A DNA stretch of 64,000 nt from Bacteroidota bacterium (lineage in GTDB: Bacteria; Bacteroidota; Ignavibacteria; UBA10030; UBA6906): NCBI GenBank assembly GCA_019637975.1, contig JAHBUR010000017.1, positions 1-64,000 of the forward strand. Reading direction: 5' to 3'. Of the stretch, positions 794-39,572 are shown in pieces. How positions within the stretch are numbered: the first letter of the stretch is position 1; every line of letters starts with the position of its first letter. The position numbers and the translations under genes are program-made. Below the pieces are notes generated by a model that saw only the letters and a program-made list of their open reading frames with translations, searched no databases and was not told the origin of the DNA.

Positions 794-2998
794 TTAATAC
801 GAAGTATCCTGCTGCATCAACAAATCACGAAAGCCTGAATTGTTGCGAAATCTGGCCAGATCGAGATCAAGCACACTCGCCGTAAAGAATCTTTTGTTCA
901 TCGCCTTAACGAGATACCGTGCGGCATCGGGAGATTGATTCCGCTGCAAGGCGTGGAGGCGTGCCGAATCATAGAGAATATGAACATCCGACGGTGAAAG
1001 AGCGAGGGCATTTGCGTTGCTCGCCAATCCATCGCCAAAACGGCCAAGCCGTGTGAACACAAGTCCGCTATAGGAATGCGCAGCGGCAGAATTGGGACGC
1101 ACTTTGAGCGTATCATCGATCAGTTGGAGTGCCTGAAGAAATACCTTCTCCCACTCGGTTCTGGATTTTCCGGCAAGTTGATACATACGTCCGAGATCGT
1201 AATGAGCAATGAAACTCCCCGGTGCTTCCAAGGTCCGGCTTTTGAGAATATCAATTGCGCGTTCGTGTTGGTTCGTGGCAACCAACGCAACGAGGTATTC
1301 ATCAGAATATGAATTGGACTTGCGATCGGAATGAAACTCGAGTTCGCGAAGAGCATTTACCGCATCGTTGTTCATCAGATGGATTGTTGCAAGCATCAAG
1401 CGTGAAGAGTGCGTACGCGGATCCCTTTCTACCAGTGTCTGTCCAGCTTTTACCGCTTCCTCGTTTCTGCCTGTCCGAAGATATGCAAGGGCGAGCCATC
1501 GTTGTGTCTCAATATCACTTGCGGCGATTTGCGCAGCCTGTTCAAGCCGGTTGACCGCTTGCTGAAAATCCGACTTGAAGAAATCAATCACACCCCACAG
1601 GCGATACACCTCGGATGATCCTCCTCCCAAATTCACAGCCCTGTGCAGACTTTGCTGTGCCGAATCAAGATACGGGGAGATCGTCTCTTGTTGAGATGCG
1701 TGAACGAGAATGTGTGTCCACCCTAATGACGTTTCGGCATAAGGAAACGTCGGATCAAGGCTCCGGGCACGGGAGAAAGCCGAGATAATCGAATCGAGCG
1801 GCACGTTGCCGGACTCACGCAGCATCGCACGTCCAAGCAAGTAACTTTCGTACGCTTCGGCGTTTACCGACGAGGTCATGAACGCAGCCTGCATTTCCTT
1901 TGCATCGACATTCATCGCGTTGGCCATTCTCGATGCTACGTCACTGCACCACACAGGTAATTCATCATGCATGCTGCCGGATGAGTATTCCAACACGGGT
2001 TTCCTTTGTTCCGTCTGAATCAATGTCACGTCAATGTTTGTACTTCCGCCGGTTCCGGCTATACTCCATTGCACAACATAGTCAGCACCTAACAGGCGCG
2101 CAGTAGCGATATCATCGCCGCTTCGTATTGCCCGTGAGGTGTTGGAGGAATATGCTCTCACAGCGCGTAAGTGAGAGAGGTGGAGAAGGAGTTCTTCGGT
2201 AAGGCCGTCGGCGATATATGCCTCGCTATGCGATACACTGGGCGGAAGAACGAGCACCCCGACCGTCGGTGGAAAATATGCAACCCGAACTTGATTGAGA
2301 ACGATAAACACAGTAGCAACGCCGAACAAGGCAACCAGCGAAATCCCGAAAAATGACAGAATGCGCAAGCTGAAGGAACGCTTCTCCTTCCTGGCTTCCT
2401 CCGACTCGGTTGAGACGGGCACTTCCGCCTCGATCTTCCTATCCCCCATGATTTGAGATTCGACGGATTCCCGTGCAACCCTCACGATGTTTAGCGGTAG
2501 GAGTTCTTCCTTATTCTTCTCTTCTTCTCTTCGGCGTTGCTCTTCGTGGAGAAGTCGTTCAGACAGGTTCTTGGCCTTTTGGATTTCATGTTGCAATGCA
2601 CCAGCTTCTGCATGGTTCGGTGCCAGCGTTGCAACGCGATCGAGATCGCGAAGCGCGTGCTCGTATTCTTCACGTTCATACTTCGATCGAGCTGAAAGGA
2701 GGAGGCCTGCTATACGTTCATACTTTGCGGATTCGTCTTCTCGAGTCGGAGGGATGTTCTCCTGGCTGAAGGCAACTTCGTCCATCACCTGCAGTTCAGG
2801 ATACGCGTCAAACTCTGATTCTTCAATCGTGGATACAGGGTCGGAGCAGGAGAATGTCTCTTCTGCGGCGGAGAGGCTCTGGGATAGTCTCGCTTCCTCG
2901 GCTTCAATCCTTGCAAGTTCCGCGGCTTCCGCCCGCTGCCGGATTTCCTCGAGCAGCGTTGTCCTATCCTGAATATCATTGCTTTTGTTGAAACCCAT
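794..2998 (-). CDS. Membrane-anchored TPR protein with a FlgO/TolB-like domain
   Basis: 734 residues. The first 60 or so form an acidic, Ala/Glu-rich coiled coil. A TPR-like pair (YEHALRDLDRVATLAPNHAEA) follows at about 100-150, then one membrane segment near 213-235 (FFGISLVALFGVATVFIVL). Residues about 240-360 read VGVLVLPPSVSHSEAYIADGLTEELLLHLS, then VRAYSSNTSRA and GADYVVQWSI. This is the FlgO/TolB-N-like fold that often sits between a kinase or cyclase domain and TPRs. From about 370 to the end are six or more TPRs (for example EVYRLWGVIDFFKSDFQQAVNRLEQA). There is no catalytic domain, so it is probably a scaffold or sensor with its TPR arm in the periplasm. The substrate is unknown. It is separated by 89 bases from the thioredoxin-like lipoprotein on the same strand. 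Confidence 0.75.
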   Translation of the reverse strand: MGFNKSNDIQDRTTLLEEIRQRAEAAELARIEAEEARLSQSLSAAEETFSCSDPVSTIEESEFDAYPELQVMDEVAFSQENIPPTREDESAKYERIAGLLLSARSKYEREEYEHALRDLDRVATLAPNHAEAGALQHEIQKAKNLSERLLHEEQRRREEEKNKEELLPLNIVRVARESVESQIMGDRKIEAEVPVSTESEEARKEKRSFSLRILSFFGISLVALFGVATVFIVLNQVRVAYFPPTVGVLVLPPSVSHSEAYIADGLTEELLLHLSHLRAVRAYSSNTSRAIRSGDDIATARLLGADYVVQWSIAGTGGSTNIDVTLIQTEQRKPVLEYSSGSMHDELPVWCSDVASRMANAMNVDAKEMQAAFMTSSVNAEAYESYLLGRAMLRESGNVPLDSIISAFSRARSLDPTFPYAETSLGWTHILVHASQQETISPYLDSAQQSLHRAVNLGGGSSEVYRLWGVIDFFKSDFQQAVNRLEQAAQIAASDIETQRWLALAYLRTGRNEEAVKAGQTLVERDPRTHSSRLMLATIHLMNNDAVNALRELEFHSDRKSNSYSDEYLVALVATNQHERAIDILKSRTLEAPGSFIAHYDLGRMYQLAGKSRTEWEKVFLQALQLIDDTLKVRPNSAAAHSYSGLVFTRLGRFGDGLASNANALALSPSDVHILYDSARLHALQRNQSPDAARYLVKAMNKRFFTASVLDLDLARFRNNSGFRDLLMQQDTSY

Positions 2999-3087
2999 TC
3001 CCTCTACACCGGAGCGCGATTCTTCAATGATTCTCGAACATATGCCATCGTATGGATTATCGGCAAAAGCCCCGGGACTCTTCAGGT

Positions 3088-3618
3088 CTATCTACCCTGC
3101 GAATCGGCGAGAATAACGAGGAGGTCTTCTTCCATTGAGGTTTTGGGGGATTCCACAACCCGTCCAATTTCAACGCCGTGTTTCAGGAAAATGAAGGTAG
3201 GCACCAATCTGATGTCATATCGCTCTGTAACGCCGTCGTCGCTCGCTTTTGTGCGGTCAACGCCATAGAATTTTATGTGAGAAGGAGGAATGGTGGCAAG
3301 GTCGGCGATCTTGAGGAACCGGGCTACCTCACGCTTGCTGTCACCGCACCACGTACCGAGTACGACAACAACCTCGACTCCCTCGTGCAGCGTCTGAATC
3401 ATCTGAACAAAATTCTCATCTACCTGATATGAATCGTAGTTCTCCTGAAATCTCGGATATTCGGGCTGCATGAAATCTTCGCGCACAACCCATCCTATCA
3501 CCATTTTCTCCGACGCCGTTTGCGTCTTTTCCGCTTCTTTCGTCGAACAACCTGCCAGCAGCAGCACGAAGAGCATTACGGACAATCGACCCATTTGTAT
3601 TCTGTGATTTATTTTCAT
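3088..3618 (-). CDS. Thioredoxin-fold lipoprotein with a single-cysteine WCGDS motif
   Basis: 176 residues with a lipoprotein signal (VMLFVLLLAGC). The start could instead be the Met at codon 9 (base 3594), which gives a tighter signal peptide; neither start has a clear SD. The core shows EVVVVLGTWCGDSKREVARFLKIAD, then PPSHIKFYGVDR and, after a cis-Pro-like VPTFIFLKHG, a last helix. This is the thioredoxin fold, but the usual CxxC is CGDS, with only the first cysteine. Such proteins occur in Bacteroidota and relatives. They could act as thiol reductants using one cysteine, or have lost redox activity. It is expected to be attached to a membrane and face the periplasm. It is divergent from queF and shares a short AT-rich promoter region with it. 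Confidence 0.7.
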   Translation of the reverse strand: MKINHRIQMGRLSVMLFVLLLAGCSTKEAEKTQTASEKMVIGWVVREDFMQPEYPRFQENYDSYQVDENFVQMIQTLHEGVEVVVVLGTWCGDSKREVARFLKIADLATIPPSHIKFYGVDRTKASDDGVTERYDIRLVPTFIFLKHGVEIGRVVESPKTSMEEDLLVILADSQGR

Positions 3619-4110: not shown

Positions 4111-4710
4111 ATGTTCAACACGTTCCTCATAGCCCTGTATGTGTCCTGCGACCTGATTGCCAACGTCACCGCCTCAAAACCTGTCACGGTGTTGGGTTTC
4201 TCGGCACCTGCCGGAGTGTTCATCTATGCGGTGACATTCACTCTTGTTGATCTCATCAACGAACGCCTTGGGAAAAAGGGGGCGCGGCAGGTTGTGTATG
4301 CGGCGTTCGCGGCAAACATACTACTTGCAGCGTACACGTTGCTTGTCGTTCATCTCCCCTCGCCCGACTTCTATACACATCAAACGGCGTTTGCGGCAAC
4401 CCTCGGATCAACGCCACGCATTGTTGTTGCGAGCCTTGTTGCATTTATTGTCAGTTCGCTCATTGACGTCGAGATTTTTGCGTGGTGGAAGGAGAAGATT
4501 GGACGGTACAAATGGGCGAGAGTAATTGTTAGCAATGCGGTTTCTACATTTGTCGATAGTCTTGTTTTTGTTGGGATAGCGTTTACCGGGGTAATGCCGC
4601 TTGTTCCCCTGATTGCGGGCCAATATGTGCTGAAGATGGGAATAACGGTGGTAAGCGTTCCGCTTATTTACCTCATCCGTCAAGAAGCAGCGAAGGCAAG
4701 AAACGACTAA
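4111..4710 (+). CDS. Queuosine precursor transporter, VUT (YhhQ/DUF165) family
   Basis: 199 residues with about six membrane segments. The family signature is clear: N-terminal ALYVSCDLIANVTASKP, then FTLVDLINERLGKKGARQVVYAAF, FIVSSLIDVEIFAWWKEKIG and SNAVSTFVDSLVFVGIAF. Members of this family import preQ0, preQ1 or related bases through the inner membrane. Direct coupling to queF, with a five-base gap, supports that role. With only queF and the transporter visible here, the cell may salvage preQ0, or the remaining que genes may lie elsewhere. The gene runs into the end of the convergent nitrilase gene, overlapping it by four bases. Confidence 0.9.
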   Translation: MFNTFLIALYVSCDLIANVTASKPVTVLGFSAPAGVFIYAVTFTLVDLINERLGKKGARQVVYAAFAANILLAAYTLLVVHLPSPDFYTHQTAFAATLGSTPRIVVASLVAFIVSSLIDVEIFAWWKEKIGRYKWARVIVSNAVSTFVDSLVFVGIAFTGVMPLVPLIAGQYVLKMGITVVSVPLIYLIRQEAAKARND

Positions 4711-5477
4711 CGAAGGCTCGATTTCAGGAACACTGCATCCGCCAAATTCCTGTGCAACCGCCTTGAAGAATCGAGACGGGAGATGTCAACCCGAAACGTA
4801 TGCAGGCCTTTCCCTTTTGATGTTCTGCTCGAGAAGATCAATTTGCCCGAGGGATCGAACGCATAGGAATATCCGCCTTCTGTATCGCTGGCATTGCATC
4901 CGACAACAAAAATCTGGTTTTCAATCGCCCGTGCTTTCAGCAATGTCTGCCACGCGTCGTCCCGCACTCTCGGCCAACGGGCCGGAACAAACAGAATCTG
5001 CAAACCTCTAAGTGCCAACGCTCGGATCAATTCCGGGAAGCGCAGGTCATAGCAGATCACTACACCGGCACGCAACCATCCGTGTCGGGTTGAGATTCGA
5101 AACGTGGATGTATCAGACCTTCCGGGTCTGAAGAATTTCCTGTCGCCCGCCGGCTTGAACAGATGAATCTTGTCGTAGCGGTGAATGACTCTGCCGCGAT
5201 GGAATACGAGAGAGGTATTTGTGGGAAGTAACGTTCCTTCGCCGAGGAACAGACTGCCGGCAACAACGGTGCAGTGCGTTTGTTTCGACAGGTTCCTCAG
5301 TGAAGAAATCAGTTGGTCCGCAAAATGATGCGGAGGCGTGCCCTGCCGGAGGGCACGATATCCTCCATCCATCAATTCCGGAAAGAGAAGAACATCTACC
5401 GATGTAAGGCGTGCAGCGAAGCGGGCATCATGAAGCGCATCGGCGTCAAAACAAAGACCCGCACGCAATATGCTCAT
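4707..5477 (-). CDS. Carbon-nitrogen hydrolase (nitrilase superfamily, omega-amidase-like)
   Basis: 256 residues with the full catalytic triad: Glu34 in LLFPELMDGG, Lys103 in HRYDKIHLF and Cys142 in VVICYDLRFPEL. Conserved regions such as TNTSLVFHRGRV and WQTLLKARAIENQIFVVGCNASD follow. The length and the YDLRFPEL context are closest to the Nit2/YafV omega-amidase branch, which hydrolyses alpha-ketoglutaramate or related amides in the cytoplasm. Substrate is inferred from similarity only. It starts seven bases after the downstream cold-shock gene on the same strand, so it is probably co-transcribed with it. A GC-rich hairpin (GTGCCC/GGGCAC arms near 5337-5360) lies inside the coding region and does not disturb the frame. 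Confidence 0.85.
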   Translation of the reverse strand: MSILRAGLCFDADALHDARFAARLTSVDVLLFPELMDGGYRALRQGTPPHHFADQLISSLRNLSKQTHCTVVAGSLFLGEGTLLPTNTSLVFHRGRVIHRYDKIHLFKPAGDRKFFRPGRSDTSTFRISTRHGWLRAGVVICYDLRFPELIRALALRGLQILFVPARWPRVRDDAWQTLLKARAIENQIFVVGCNASDTEGGYSYAFDPSGKLIFSSRTSKGKGLHTFRVDISRLDSSRRLHRNLADAVFLKSSLR

Positions 5478-38838: not shown

Positions 38839-38975
38839 CGGGGCGTAGCTCAGCCCGGCTAGTTCCATTCCGACCGAACTTACCGCTTCCCAGGTAAGTT
38901 CGTCTTGTCGGAATGCGAATCCCGCCGGAGGCGGAAAGCGCGCCCGCTGGCAGACAAAGAGAACTGTGTTTCACA
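38839..38975. repeat. tRNA-Pro-hairpin spacer, copy 1 (A)
   Basis: 137 bp. The first 24 bases equal the 5' acceptor strand and D-arm of tRNA-Pro (39423-39446). A hairpin follows at 38866-38915: outer stem CATTCCGAC/GTCGGAATG and inner stem CGAACTTAC/GTAAGTTCG, with loop CGCTTCCCAG and bulge TCTT. A small palindrome CCGCCGGAGGCGG lies at 38922-38934. The whole segment recurs at 39286-39422, exactly 447 bases later. Confidence 0.85.
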
Positions 38976-39039
38976 CGGGGCGTAGCTCAGCCCGGCTAGA
39001 GCGTGGCGCCTTCGGCGCCAAAGTCGCAGGCTCGAACTC
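38976..39039 (+). pseudogene. Damaged tRNA-Pro copy with a palindromic anticodon arm (B)
   Basis: The first 28 bases match the intact tRNA-Pro exactly (acceptor strand, D-arm, base 26). The 17-base anticodon arm is replaced by the perfect palindrome TGGCGCCTTCGGCGCCA. The variable loop (AAGTC) and GCAGG of the T-stem remain, the T-loop is CTCGAAC, and the copy then stops where the nuclease ORF begins. The 3' T-strand and acceptor strand are absent, so it cannot form a standard tRNA. Confidence 0.8.
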
Positions 39040-39309
39040 ATGGTGGCATACATACTGCGTAGCCAAAAAACAGGAAGATACTACACCGGTGTAACGGAGG
39101 ACCTTGCAGCTCGTCTGCAACAACACAATGCCGGTCGGACTTCCTCGACACGACACGGGGTACCGTGGGAAGTCGTCTATTCACGCAGCTGCGAGAACCG
39201 TTCGCTGGCTGTGCAATTGGAACGTGAAATCAAATCTCGCGGAGCAAAAAGGTTCCTTGAGAGTCAGGAGTATTTCAAAATCCTACGGGGCGTAGCTCAG
39301 CCCGGCTAG
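39040..39309 (+). CDS. GIY-YIG nuclease-domain protein embedded in tRNA-Pro repeats
   Basis: 89 residues. MVAYILRSQKTGRYYTGVTE holds the GIY-YIG-like motif as YIL and YTG. Next comes DLAARLQQHNAGRTSSTRHG with the conserved Arg and His, then VPWEVVYSRSCENRSLAVQLE, a Glu-containing helix REIKSRGAKRFLESQEYF and a tail ILRGVAQPG. The family (UvrC-N-like, standalone UPF0213 proteins) includes DNA nucleases and homing enzymes. The ATG comes right after a damaged tRNA T-loop, without an SD. The last seven codons and the stop are the start of the next tRNA-Pro fragment (39286 on), so the ORF spans the repeat junction. It may drive spread of the repeat, but this is inference. Confidence 0.75.
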   Translation: MVAYILRSQKTGRYYTGVTEDLAARLQQHNAGRTSSTRHGVPWEVVYSRSCENRSLAVQLEREIKSRGAKRFLESQEYFKILRGVAQPG

Positions 39310-39422
39310 TTCCATTCCGACCGAACTTACCGCTTCTCAGGTAAGTTCGTTTTGTCGGAATGCGAATCCCGCCGGAGGCGGGAAGCGCCCGTTGGCAGAA
39401 CAAAAGAGAACAGTGTTTCATA
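39286..39422. repeat. tRNA-Pro-hairpin spacer, copy 2 (A')
   Basis: 137 bp, same build as 38839-38975: tRNA 5' fragment, 9+9-bp hairpin at 39313-39362 and palindrome CCGCCGGAGGCGG at 39369-39381. Within the hairpin the copies differ only in the loop (one base) and the bulge (one base). It leads directly into the intact tRNA-Pro. Confidence 0.85.
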
Positions 39423-39497
39423 CGGGGCGTAGCTCAGCCCGGCTAGAGCGCTTGCTTTGGGAGCAAGAAGTCGCAGGTTCGAATCCTGTCGCCCCGA
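39423..39497 (+). tRNA. tRNA-Pro(UGG)
   Basis: 75 bases. Acceptor CGGGGCG/CGCCCCG, D-arm GCTC/GAGC, anticodon stem CTTGC/GCAAG with loop TTTGGGA (anticodon TGG), variable loop AAGTC, T-arm GCAGG-TTCGAAT-CCTGT, discriminator A. CCA is not encoded. All stems pair. It is the only complete tRNA in the array. Confidence 0.97.
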
Positions 39498-39513
39498 CTA
39501 CAATAAGACAACG

Positions 39514-39572
39514 GTCGCAGGTTCTCAGCCGAAGGCTGATCCGCCTCCGGCGGAGAATCCTGTCGCCCCGAC
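39514..39572 (+). pseudogene. tRNA-Pro 3' half split in the T-loop by two palindromes (C)
   Basis: Bases 39514-39524 and 39555-39572 match the tRNA-Pro 3' end. Between them, inside the T-loop, are 30 extra bases made of two hairpins, TCAGCCGAAGGCTGA (39525-39539) and TCCGCCTCCGGCGGA (39540-39554). The second contains the exact reverse complement of the small palindrome in A and A'. Confidence 0.85.

Follow-up and report, generated by a model that had tools for sequence, protein, structure and literature searches.

Small GIY-YIG nuclease genes lying within bacterial tRNA genes, each with a duplicated part of its host tRNA

The tRNA-Pro locus described here is best explained as a small mobile element, made up of a GIY-YIG nuclease gene and a duplicated part of its host tRNA gene. 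The nuclease gene is inserted in the tRNA gene, the original ends of which remain outside as remnants, and a complete tRNA has been rebuilt to one side of the insertion (downstream of the nuclease where the remnants are 5′, upstream where they are 3′). Element-free alleles occur in relatives, nuclease lineages are tied to tRNA isotypes, and both tandem re-duplication and purifying selection were observed. We put the probability that such loci are tRNA-gene-targeting, self-restoring elements resembling homing endonucleases at roughly 0.7; DNA cutting and homing are inferred.

The locus lies in the genome of a Bacteroidota bacterium (assembly GCA_019637975.1; GTDB lineage Bacteria; Bacteroidota; Ignavibacteria; UBA10030; UBA6906). 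The window analysed is a stretch of 64,000 nucleotides, positions 1–64,000 of the forward strand of contig JAHBUR010000017.1. The genome of the window (4.25 Mb) is referred to as G000 and a relative from the same genus as G002.

The tRNA-Pro locus and its nuclease

From left to right, the locus starts at the native upstream flank. Next come tRNA-Pro positions 1–24, followed by a nested long hairpin, a palindrome of small size, a linker, an altered tRNA copy (positions 1–61) and the nuclease ORF. After the ORF come tRNA positions 1–24, hairpin, palindrome and linker again, then an intact tRNA-Pro(TGG), a 3′ remnant with a 30-nt double hairpin, and the native downstream flank. The features are as follows.

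38839–38862, + strand: tRNA-Pro 5′ remnant, tRNA positions 1–24; 100% match to the intact tRNA; adjoins the native upstream flank
38863–38915, + strand: long nested hairpin that follows tRNA position 24, in the D loop; seen in the sequence itself, with arms CATTCCGAC/GTCGGAATG and GAACTTACC/GGTAAGTTC; copy at 39310–39362
38922–38934, no strand: small GC-rich palindrome CCGCCGGAGGCGG; copy at 39369–39381
38976–39036, + strand: disarmed tRNA-Pro copy, positions 1–61; 83.9% match to the intact tRNA over 1–61
39004–39020, + strand: anticodon-arm replacement within the disarmed copy, a 17-nt hairpin TGGCGCCTTCGGCGCCA in place of CTTGCTTTGGGAGCAAG
39040–39309, + strand: GIY-YIG nuclease ORF, 89 aa (PF01541)
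39286–39309, + strand: second tRNA-Pro 5′ remnant, positions 1–24, 447 bp after the first
39310–39362, + strand: second copy of the long hairpin (D2, 97% over 103 nt)
39369–39381, no strand: second copy of the small palindrome
39423–39498, + strand: intact tRNA-Pro(TGG) (ARAGORN; RF00005, 67.6 bits; the empty-site tRNA of G002 is the same at 76/76 positions)
39513–39524, + strand: tRNA 3′ remnant, 5′ side of the T arm up to TTC
39525–39554, + strand: 30-nt double hairpin (15+15) at the T-loop site TTC^GAA; the same type is found in protein genes elsewhere
39555–39572, + strand: tRNA 3′ remnant, positions 59–76; 100% over 18 nt; adjoins the native downstream flank, which matches G002

An earlier sequence-only reading had placed tRNA-Pro 5′ pieces at 38839 and 39286, with longer copies at 38976 and 39423; the spacing is indeed exactly 447 bp in both cases. 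A 165-bp block (38839–39003) is repeated at 39286–39450 with 148/165 positions identical in register; the repeat is a partial tandem repeat, because the nuclease is absent from the second unit. Reading 38839–39572 bore out the proposed unit order of tRNA 5′ piece, hairpin, palindrome and tRNA copy, and ARAGORN agreed that the locus holds one intact tRNA. The "split 3′ half" that had been placed after this tRNA does contain the tRNA 3′ part; more precisely, its T loop (TTC^GAA) is interrupted by the 30-nt double hairpin, which had not been separated out and whose type occurs elsewhere too. The sequence upstream of the first 5′ remnant corresponds to that beside the empty tRNA-Pro of G002, and the disarmed copy ends in the T loop, where it is cut off by the nuclease gene. 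The palindrome CCGCCGGAGGCGG has six sites in the 4.25-Mb genome, three of them in the tRNA-Pro locus and one in a tRNA-Ser element.

The nuclease ORF is bounded on both sides by tRNA-Pro pieces, as had been claimed, and its last codons and stop (TAG) are supplied by the second piece. It matched PF01541 at 53.1 bits (cut-off 22.6; E = 3.9e-14). The catalytic-type residues Y4, Y15, G17, R25, H29 and E61 are conserved; among 22 relatives, Y15, G17, R25 and E61 are invariant and Y4 is kept in >90%. By these two sequence criteria, domain score and active-site residues, both of which are met, the predicted protein belongs to the GIY-YIG nuclease superfamily. In sequence-profile comparison, the nearest solved structures were those of UPF0213 (1zg2 and 1ywl; E = 3e-15 and 8e-13) and SLX1 (6e-7), and not I-TevI. 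Between G000 and G002, the Leu and Ser-gga nucleases are under purifying selection, with dN/dS values of 0.14 and 0.15, respectively, by NG86 and of 0.21 and 0.31 by YN00.

With regard to a group I intron as a possible setting of the ORF, the inserts examined have an intact tRNA next to the ORF and tRNA remnants on its flanks; the window element itself was not covered by an intron search. In an Rfam search of 20 other loci, a group I intron was found only at L095, about 1.4 kb from the ORF. On this Parcubacteria contig, the intron (4553–4830) lies downstream of the GIY-YIG ORF and LSU rRNA matches lie upstream of it.

Empty sites, isotype specificity and spread

PF01541 occurs at seven places in the 4.25-Mb genome. 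Two of these are a uvrC-type gene (L006) and another long ORF (L007); the remaining five are small and free-standing. All five free-standing genes (5/5) abut a tRNA gene (Cys, Ser-gct, Leu-caa, Ser-gga and Pro-tgg). Each of the 43 tRNA genes was compared by BLAST with its own surroundings for partial copies. Such copies were detected at four of the five nuclease-linked tRNAs, and inspection of the Cys locus revealed a 5′ piece broken by a palindrome. BLAST detected no tRNA pieces beside the other 38 tRNA genes of the genome (0/38); for two of them (Leu-cag and Gly-ccc), the scan was limited to a short stretch to one side of the gene. The difference between 5/5 with a GIY-YIG gene and 0/38 without one is significant (Fisher, 1e-6). 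The co-occurrence of the nuclease and tRNA-Pro pieces is not a chance mosaic, and fragments common without any nuclease, which would have refuted the link, were not met in this genome.

We looked for empty tRNA-Pro sites in close relatives, a check proposed from the sequence alone. At the syntenic site, G002 has a plain single tRNA-Pro, which is followed by the orthologous neighbour gene (87% identity). Because the G002 flanks align on both sides, everything between the outermost tRNA pieces of the window is extra in G000. The reverse case was found at Asp, Gly and Val, where G002 carries elements and G000 has plain tRNAs with homologous flanks. At the Gly site, 18 bp of the tRNA 3′ end are shared by both flank alignments; this stretch is the duplicated part. 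Judged from these alignments, the four occupied/empty pairs (Pro, Asp, Gly and Val) show insertion or loss within the genus, and at all four the homing-gene criterion of a specific insertion site with empty alleles in relatives was met. The intact tRNA of the occupied allele was identical to the empty allele for both Pro (76/76) and Gly (74/74), which gives no support to protection of the restored tRNA by point changes. As for the criterion that insertion destroys the recognition site, the remnants are altered, yet the intact tRNA can equal the empty allele.

Target specificity of nuclease lineages, another homing-gene criterion, was met, as the nuclease tree clusters by tRNA isotype. In a tree of 109 nucleases, 31 isotype changes were counted, compared with 77.5 when labels were shuffled, and none of 200 shuffles gave a value as low. 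The tree rests on few columns and has many weak forks, and the clustering is partly due to vertical descent. The window protein groups, with support, with six others, and every member of this set lies at tRNA-Pro; one member is mislabelled Cys because ARAGORN takes the disarmed remnant for a tRNA. At L205, a disarmed tRNA-Pro remnant (1734–1804) is called tRNA-Cys(aca) by ARAGORN, and false genes of this kind can enter tRNA annotations.

A search of GTDB genomes with the single protein returned 46 loci from Ignavibacteria, Flavobacteria, Verrucomicrobia, Planctomycetes, Chloroflexi, Patescibacteria and others. A same-strand tRNA lay within 250 bp at 21/46, and 17 of these 21 had remnants. Rfam searches of 20 loci without a nearby ARAGORN tRNA mostly gave no match, and direct repeats at several ARAGORN-negative loci (L060, L066 and L075) are tRNA pieces. 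A profile search found relatives in 87 of 119 class-level genomes, with up to 15 in each. After deduplication, this class set comprised 85 loci, 71 of them within 250 bp of a tRNA and 70 of these 71 with nuclease and tRNA on the same strand. Remnants were present at 65/85 loci (0 in a reversed-tRNA control), and nine of the 14 exceptions were near contig ends. The class-set figure of 84% is biased upward, because the profile was built from tRNA-linked nucleases. Nucleases of the class set alone occur at 24 tRNA/anticodon classes. Overall, the proposed search for GIY-YIG ORFs near tRNA genes with flanking fragments, run at 250 bp, gave about 90 loci in relatives and other phyla. Relatives with the gene and no tRNA fragments, named as a refuting case, were not seen, the subfamily being rarely away from tRNAs.

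The remnants follow a side rule. Where the intact tRNA is downstream, a tRNA 5′ part lies upstream of the ORF; where it is upstream, a tRNA 3′ part lies downstream. In the class set, opposite-side remnants reaching the tRNA end obeyed this rule with almost no exceptions, and it also holds in Verrucomicrobia, Planctomycetes, Patescibacteria, Chloroflexi and Flavobacteria. The ORF therefore sits inside a tRNA gene, one part of which is present twice.

Tandem arrays of remnant and nuclease were also found, with three 316-bp units in the named isolate genome of Zunongwangia atlantica, three units in each of the one-contig genomes G050 (427 bp) and G130 (323 bp), and units spaced by about 312 bp in G046. 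The present unit at the Ser-gga locus is preceded by an older remnant together with a nuclease tail, which we read as repeated rounds. Repeats of this kind can be mis-assembled, and many element copies lie at contig ends; however, the same architecture recurs in independent genomes, including G050, G130 and Z. atlantica. An assembly artefact or chance repeat, the former having been named as a refuting case, is hardly credible given this recurrence.

A rival explanation is passive tandem duplication, in which a GIY-YIG gene resident in the host is merely copied along with tRNA genes as these multiply and degenerate, without mobility. Fixed spacing within arrays fits this explanation, as does the window itself, a 447-bp partial tandem repeat. 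It does not account well for the range of nuclease sites, which comprises 24 tRNA/anticodon classes in the class set alone and extends to several phyla, almost invariably with pieces of the matching tRNA, or for the lack of duplicated pieces at all 38 nuclease-free tRNAs of G000. Moreover, in the occupied/empty pairs the nuclease is absent, not merely single-copy. We consider passive duplication largely refuted and quite improbable.

Hairpins in the tRNA remnants

Of the 58 remnant intervals in which both sides are preserved, 51 had a non-native anticodon arm. The outer stem was perfect over at least 4 in 34 of these 51, compared with 0.66 expected by shuffling; intervals from tandem copies are not independent. 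In the clade of the window nuclease, 6/7 members carry TGGCGC-N5-GCGCCA, compared with 2/150 other loci (Fisher, 1e-8), and the anticodon-arm hairpin tracks the nuclease lineage in this clade. A GTCGCCGCGGCGAC hairpin occurs in a Verrucomicrobia/Planctomycetes Pro clade and a few others, and at L065 this type shows a paired change from T-A to C-G within one locus.

Between G000 and G002, the Leu and Ser-gga remnants are 95–98% identical, while the ORFs are 84% and 73% identical and the spacers about 55–57%. Hairpin differences are confined to the loops and the stems are kept (L003/L139 and L004/L140). As far as two genomes' alignments can tell, stem conservation amid loop and spacer divergence suggests constraint or selection, or else repair that keeps palindromes.

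The whole arrangement can also be read at the RNA level. The nuclease might act on tRNA, with the co-transcribed disarmed remnant serving as a decoy or antitoxin RNA in which an inert hairpin has taken the place of the cleavable anticodon arm. Perfect hairpins do replace the anticodon arm in most measurable remnants, and the Leu and Ser-gga hairpins of G000 and G002 differ in their loops while ORF and spacer diverge. Some remnants are near-complete tRNA copies (L141 and L211), the nuclease is on the same strand as the tRNA, and its lineages are isotype-specific. However, many remnants comprise only tRNA positions 1–32 or the 3′ third and could not fold as a tRNA mimic, and T loops are often interrupted by inserts. 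The nearest solved relatives are UPF0213 and the DNA structure-specific SLX1, and the presence or absence of whole elements at tRNA sites better fits insertion. An RNA-level function is thus unlikely, though it retains some weight.

Double hairpins of 22 and 30 nt for the most part interrupt T loops at TTC^GA. Those of the 30-nt type additionally occur in intergenic DNA and, in similar TTC/GAA contexts, within protein genes. The 30-nt type therefore looks like a separate mini-element for which remnants are landing sites, and we no longer count the 22- and 30-nt double hairpins, unlike the other hairpins, as belonging to the nuclease element. At L253, L254, L263, L268 and L274 (~1501), TCCGCC..GGCGGA occurs twice inside coding sequence, apparently in frame and spanning ten codons. 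Some of these coding 30-nt hairpins are in secretion-tail domains, and their target context is TTC/TTT^GAA/AAA. Double-hairpin elements are known from Allomyces mtDNA, and protein-coding palindromic elements from Rickettsia. The 22- and 30-nt T-loop inserts resemble them in consisting of two adjacent palindromes and, for the 30-nt type, in also lying inside protein genes; they differ in sequence and in the preference for TTC^GAA-like targets noticed here.

Proposed mechanism and comparison with known systems

In the homing reading, the nuclease would cut an element-free tRNA gene of its own isotype, and repair from the element-bearing copy would install the nuclease together with the duplicated tRNA half. 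In this way the element would spread without depriving the host of an essential tRNA. The leftover copy may be shielded from cutting by its hairpins, among them the one in place of the anticodon arm, or these hairpins may serve as a binding site for the cognate nuclease. The sequence-only reading had proposed an element that spreads at tRNA-Pro genes by breaking and repairing them; recurrence and empty sites support a spreading element, whereas breaking and repairing remain inference, as no cleavage has been shown.

Cleavage and mobility are unobserved, and the main difficulty for homing is that the restored tRNA of a carrier can match the empty allele. Where the two are the same, as for Pro and Gly, an enzyme that needed only the tRNA for recognition would cleave the locus that encodes it; its target would have to extend into the flank or involve some further feature. 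A target reaching from the tRNA into the flank could resolve the difficulty, although there are no cleavage data: on one side the restored tRNA adjoins foreign sequence, and the remnant next to the native flank is interrupted by hairpins. A fuller proposal can be made only tentatively, at somewhat less than even odds. It holds that these elements form a widespread bacterial selfish class, in which a GIY-YIG nuclease (UPF0213/SLX1-like, possibly structure-selective) is directed to tRNA genes of particular isotypes and the interrupted tRNA is rebuilt; a lineage-specific palindrome, standing in for the anticodon arm of the disarmed copy, would act as protection, operator or amplification site.

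tRNA genes are docking sites for large integrase-borne islands. An element that integrates site-specifically, with the tRNA as its attachment site, and then restores that tRNA would be alike in form, as the tRNA is the target and a duplicated part restores it. However, the inserts examined, a few hundred bp long, hold just the small GIY-YIG ORF with no recombinase, and thus do not meet the criterion for tRNA-integrated islands (Tyr/Ser recombinase plus att repeats). Insertion points and duplicated lengths also vary by isotype and locus, and either tRNA half can be involved. We regard such an origin as very unlikely. No relatives of the nuclease were found among viral contigs, and plasmid and phage searches gave two weak matches each, so that no phage or plasmid vector was found.

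Fungal mitochondrial mORFs duplicate the 3′ end of their host gene, as in atp6 of Allomyces macrogynus and atp6, atp9, cox2 and nad3 of Glomus; one Glomus case involves a GIY-YIG nuclease (PMC3630166). In both systems, an endonuclease lies in an essential gene, a duplicated part restores the gene, and the leftover native part remains outside (PMC3630166). The side rule and the restored tRNA meet the mORF criterion of an endonuclease with a restoring duplicated part of the host gene. By contrast, the hosts here are bacterial tRNA genes and not mitochondrial protein genes, so that the second mORF criterion, which also includes common descent, is not fulfilled; without evidence of common descent, we do not file the tRNA elements as mORF members. 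Furthermore, the inserted end of mORFs is divergent, whereas the restored tRNA can be identical; in the tRNA elements either gene half is duplicated, and remnants have replaced anticodon arms.

A GIY-YIG gene of another subfamily (LKGW type) lies in an apparent murG at L132 (G001:C159, ~2740–3400, reversed locus). A 66-bp direct repeat, apparently the murG start, lies on either side of it, as if duplicated to restore the gene. From this case, gene-restoring duplication may not be limited to tRNAs. At L138 (G002:C11:50987–51202), a GIY-YIG ORF apparently lies between cas4-like and cas1-like genes, with short repeats flanking it.

T4-type phages carry free-standing GIY-YIG homing endonucleases, including SegB at the phage tRNA region (PMC10448857, PMC13096335), and SegB promotes segmental amplification (PMC13096335); both points rest on the portions of these papers available to us. 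As far as those portions go, the likeness lies in small GIY-YIG genes tied to tRNA genes, and the amplification recalls the tandem arrays; unlike the present elements, these are phage genes beside tRNAs, and duplicated tRNA halves are not described for SegB there. The proteins of the tRNA-linked elements are 80–100 aa long, and among solved structures UPF0213 and SLX1 come nearest to them. To our knowledge, UPF0213 and SLX1 nucleases are not known as tRNA-gene-borne mobile genes. In the accessible part of a phylogenomic survey of the GIY-YIG superfamily, no such link is made where tRNA is mentioned (PMC1564403). We found no account of tRNA-embedded GIY-YIG elements with duplicated tRNA halves in the literature covered; this is weak evidence of novelty, because coverage was partial (most subscription journals and bioRxiv were outside it).

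A nuclease of ~90 residues thus seems to inhabit tRNA genes without recombinase, intron or intein, rebuilding the tRNA that it interrupts. Present in 87 of 119 class-level genomes, at up to 15 copies and in several phyla, these elements would therefore rank, in both small size and frequency, near the top of the selfish elements of bacteria. They would be a source of tRNA pseudogenes and annotation errors, and a ready test system for how homing elements spread in essential RNA genes. The evidence points to a widespread, apparently undescribed kind of selfish DNA.
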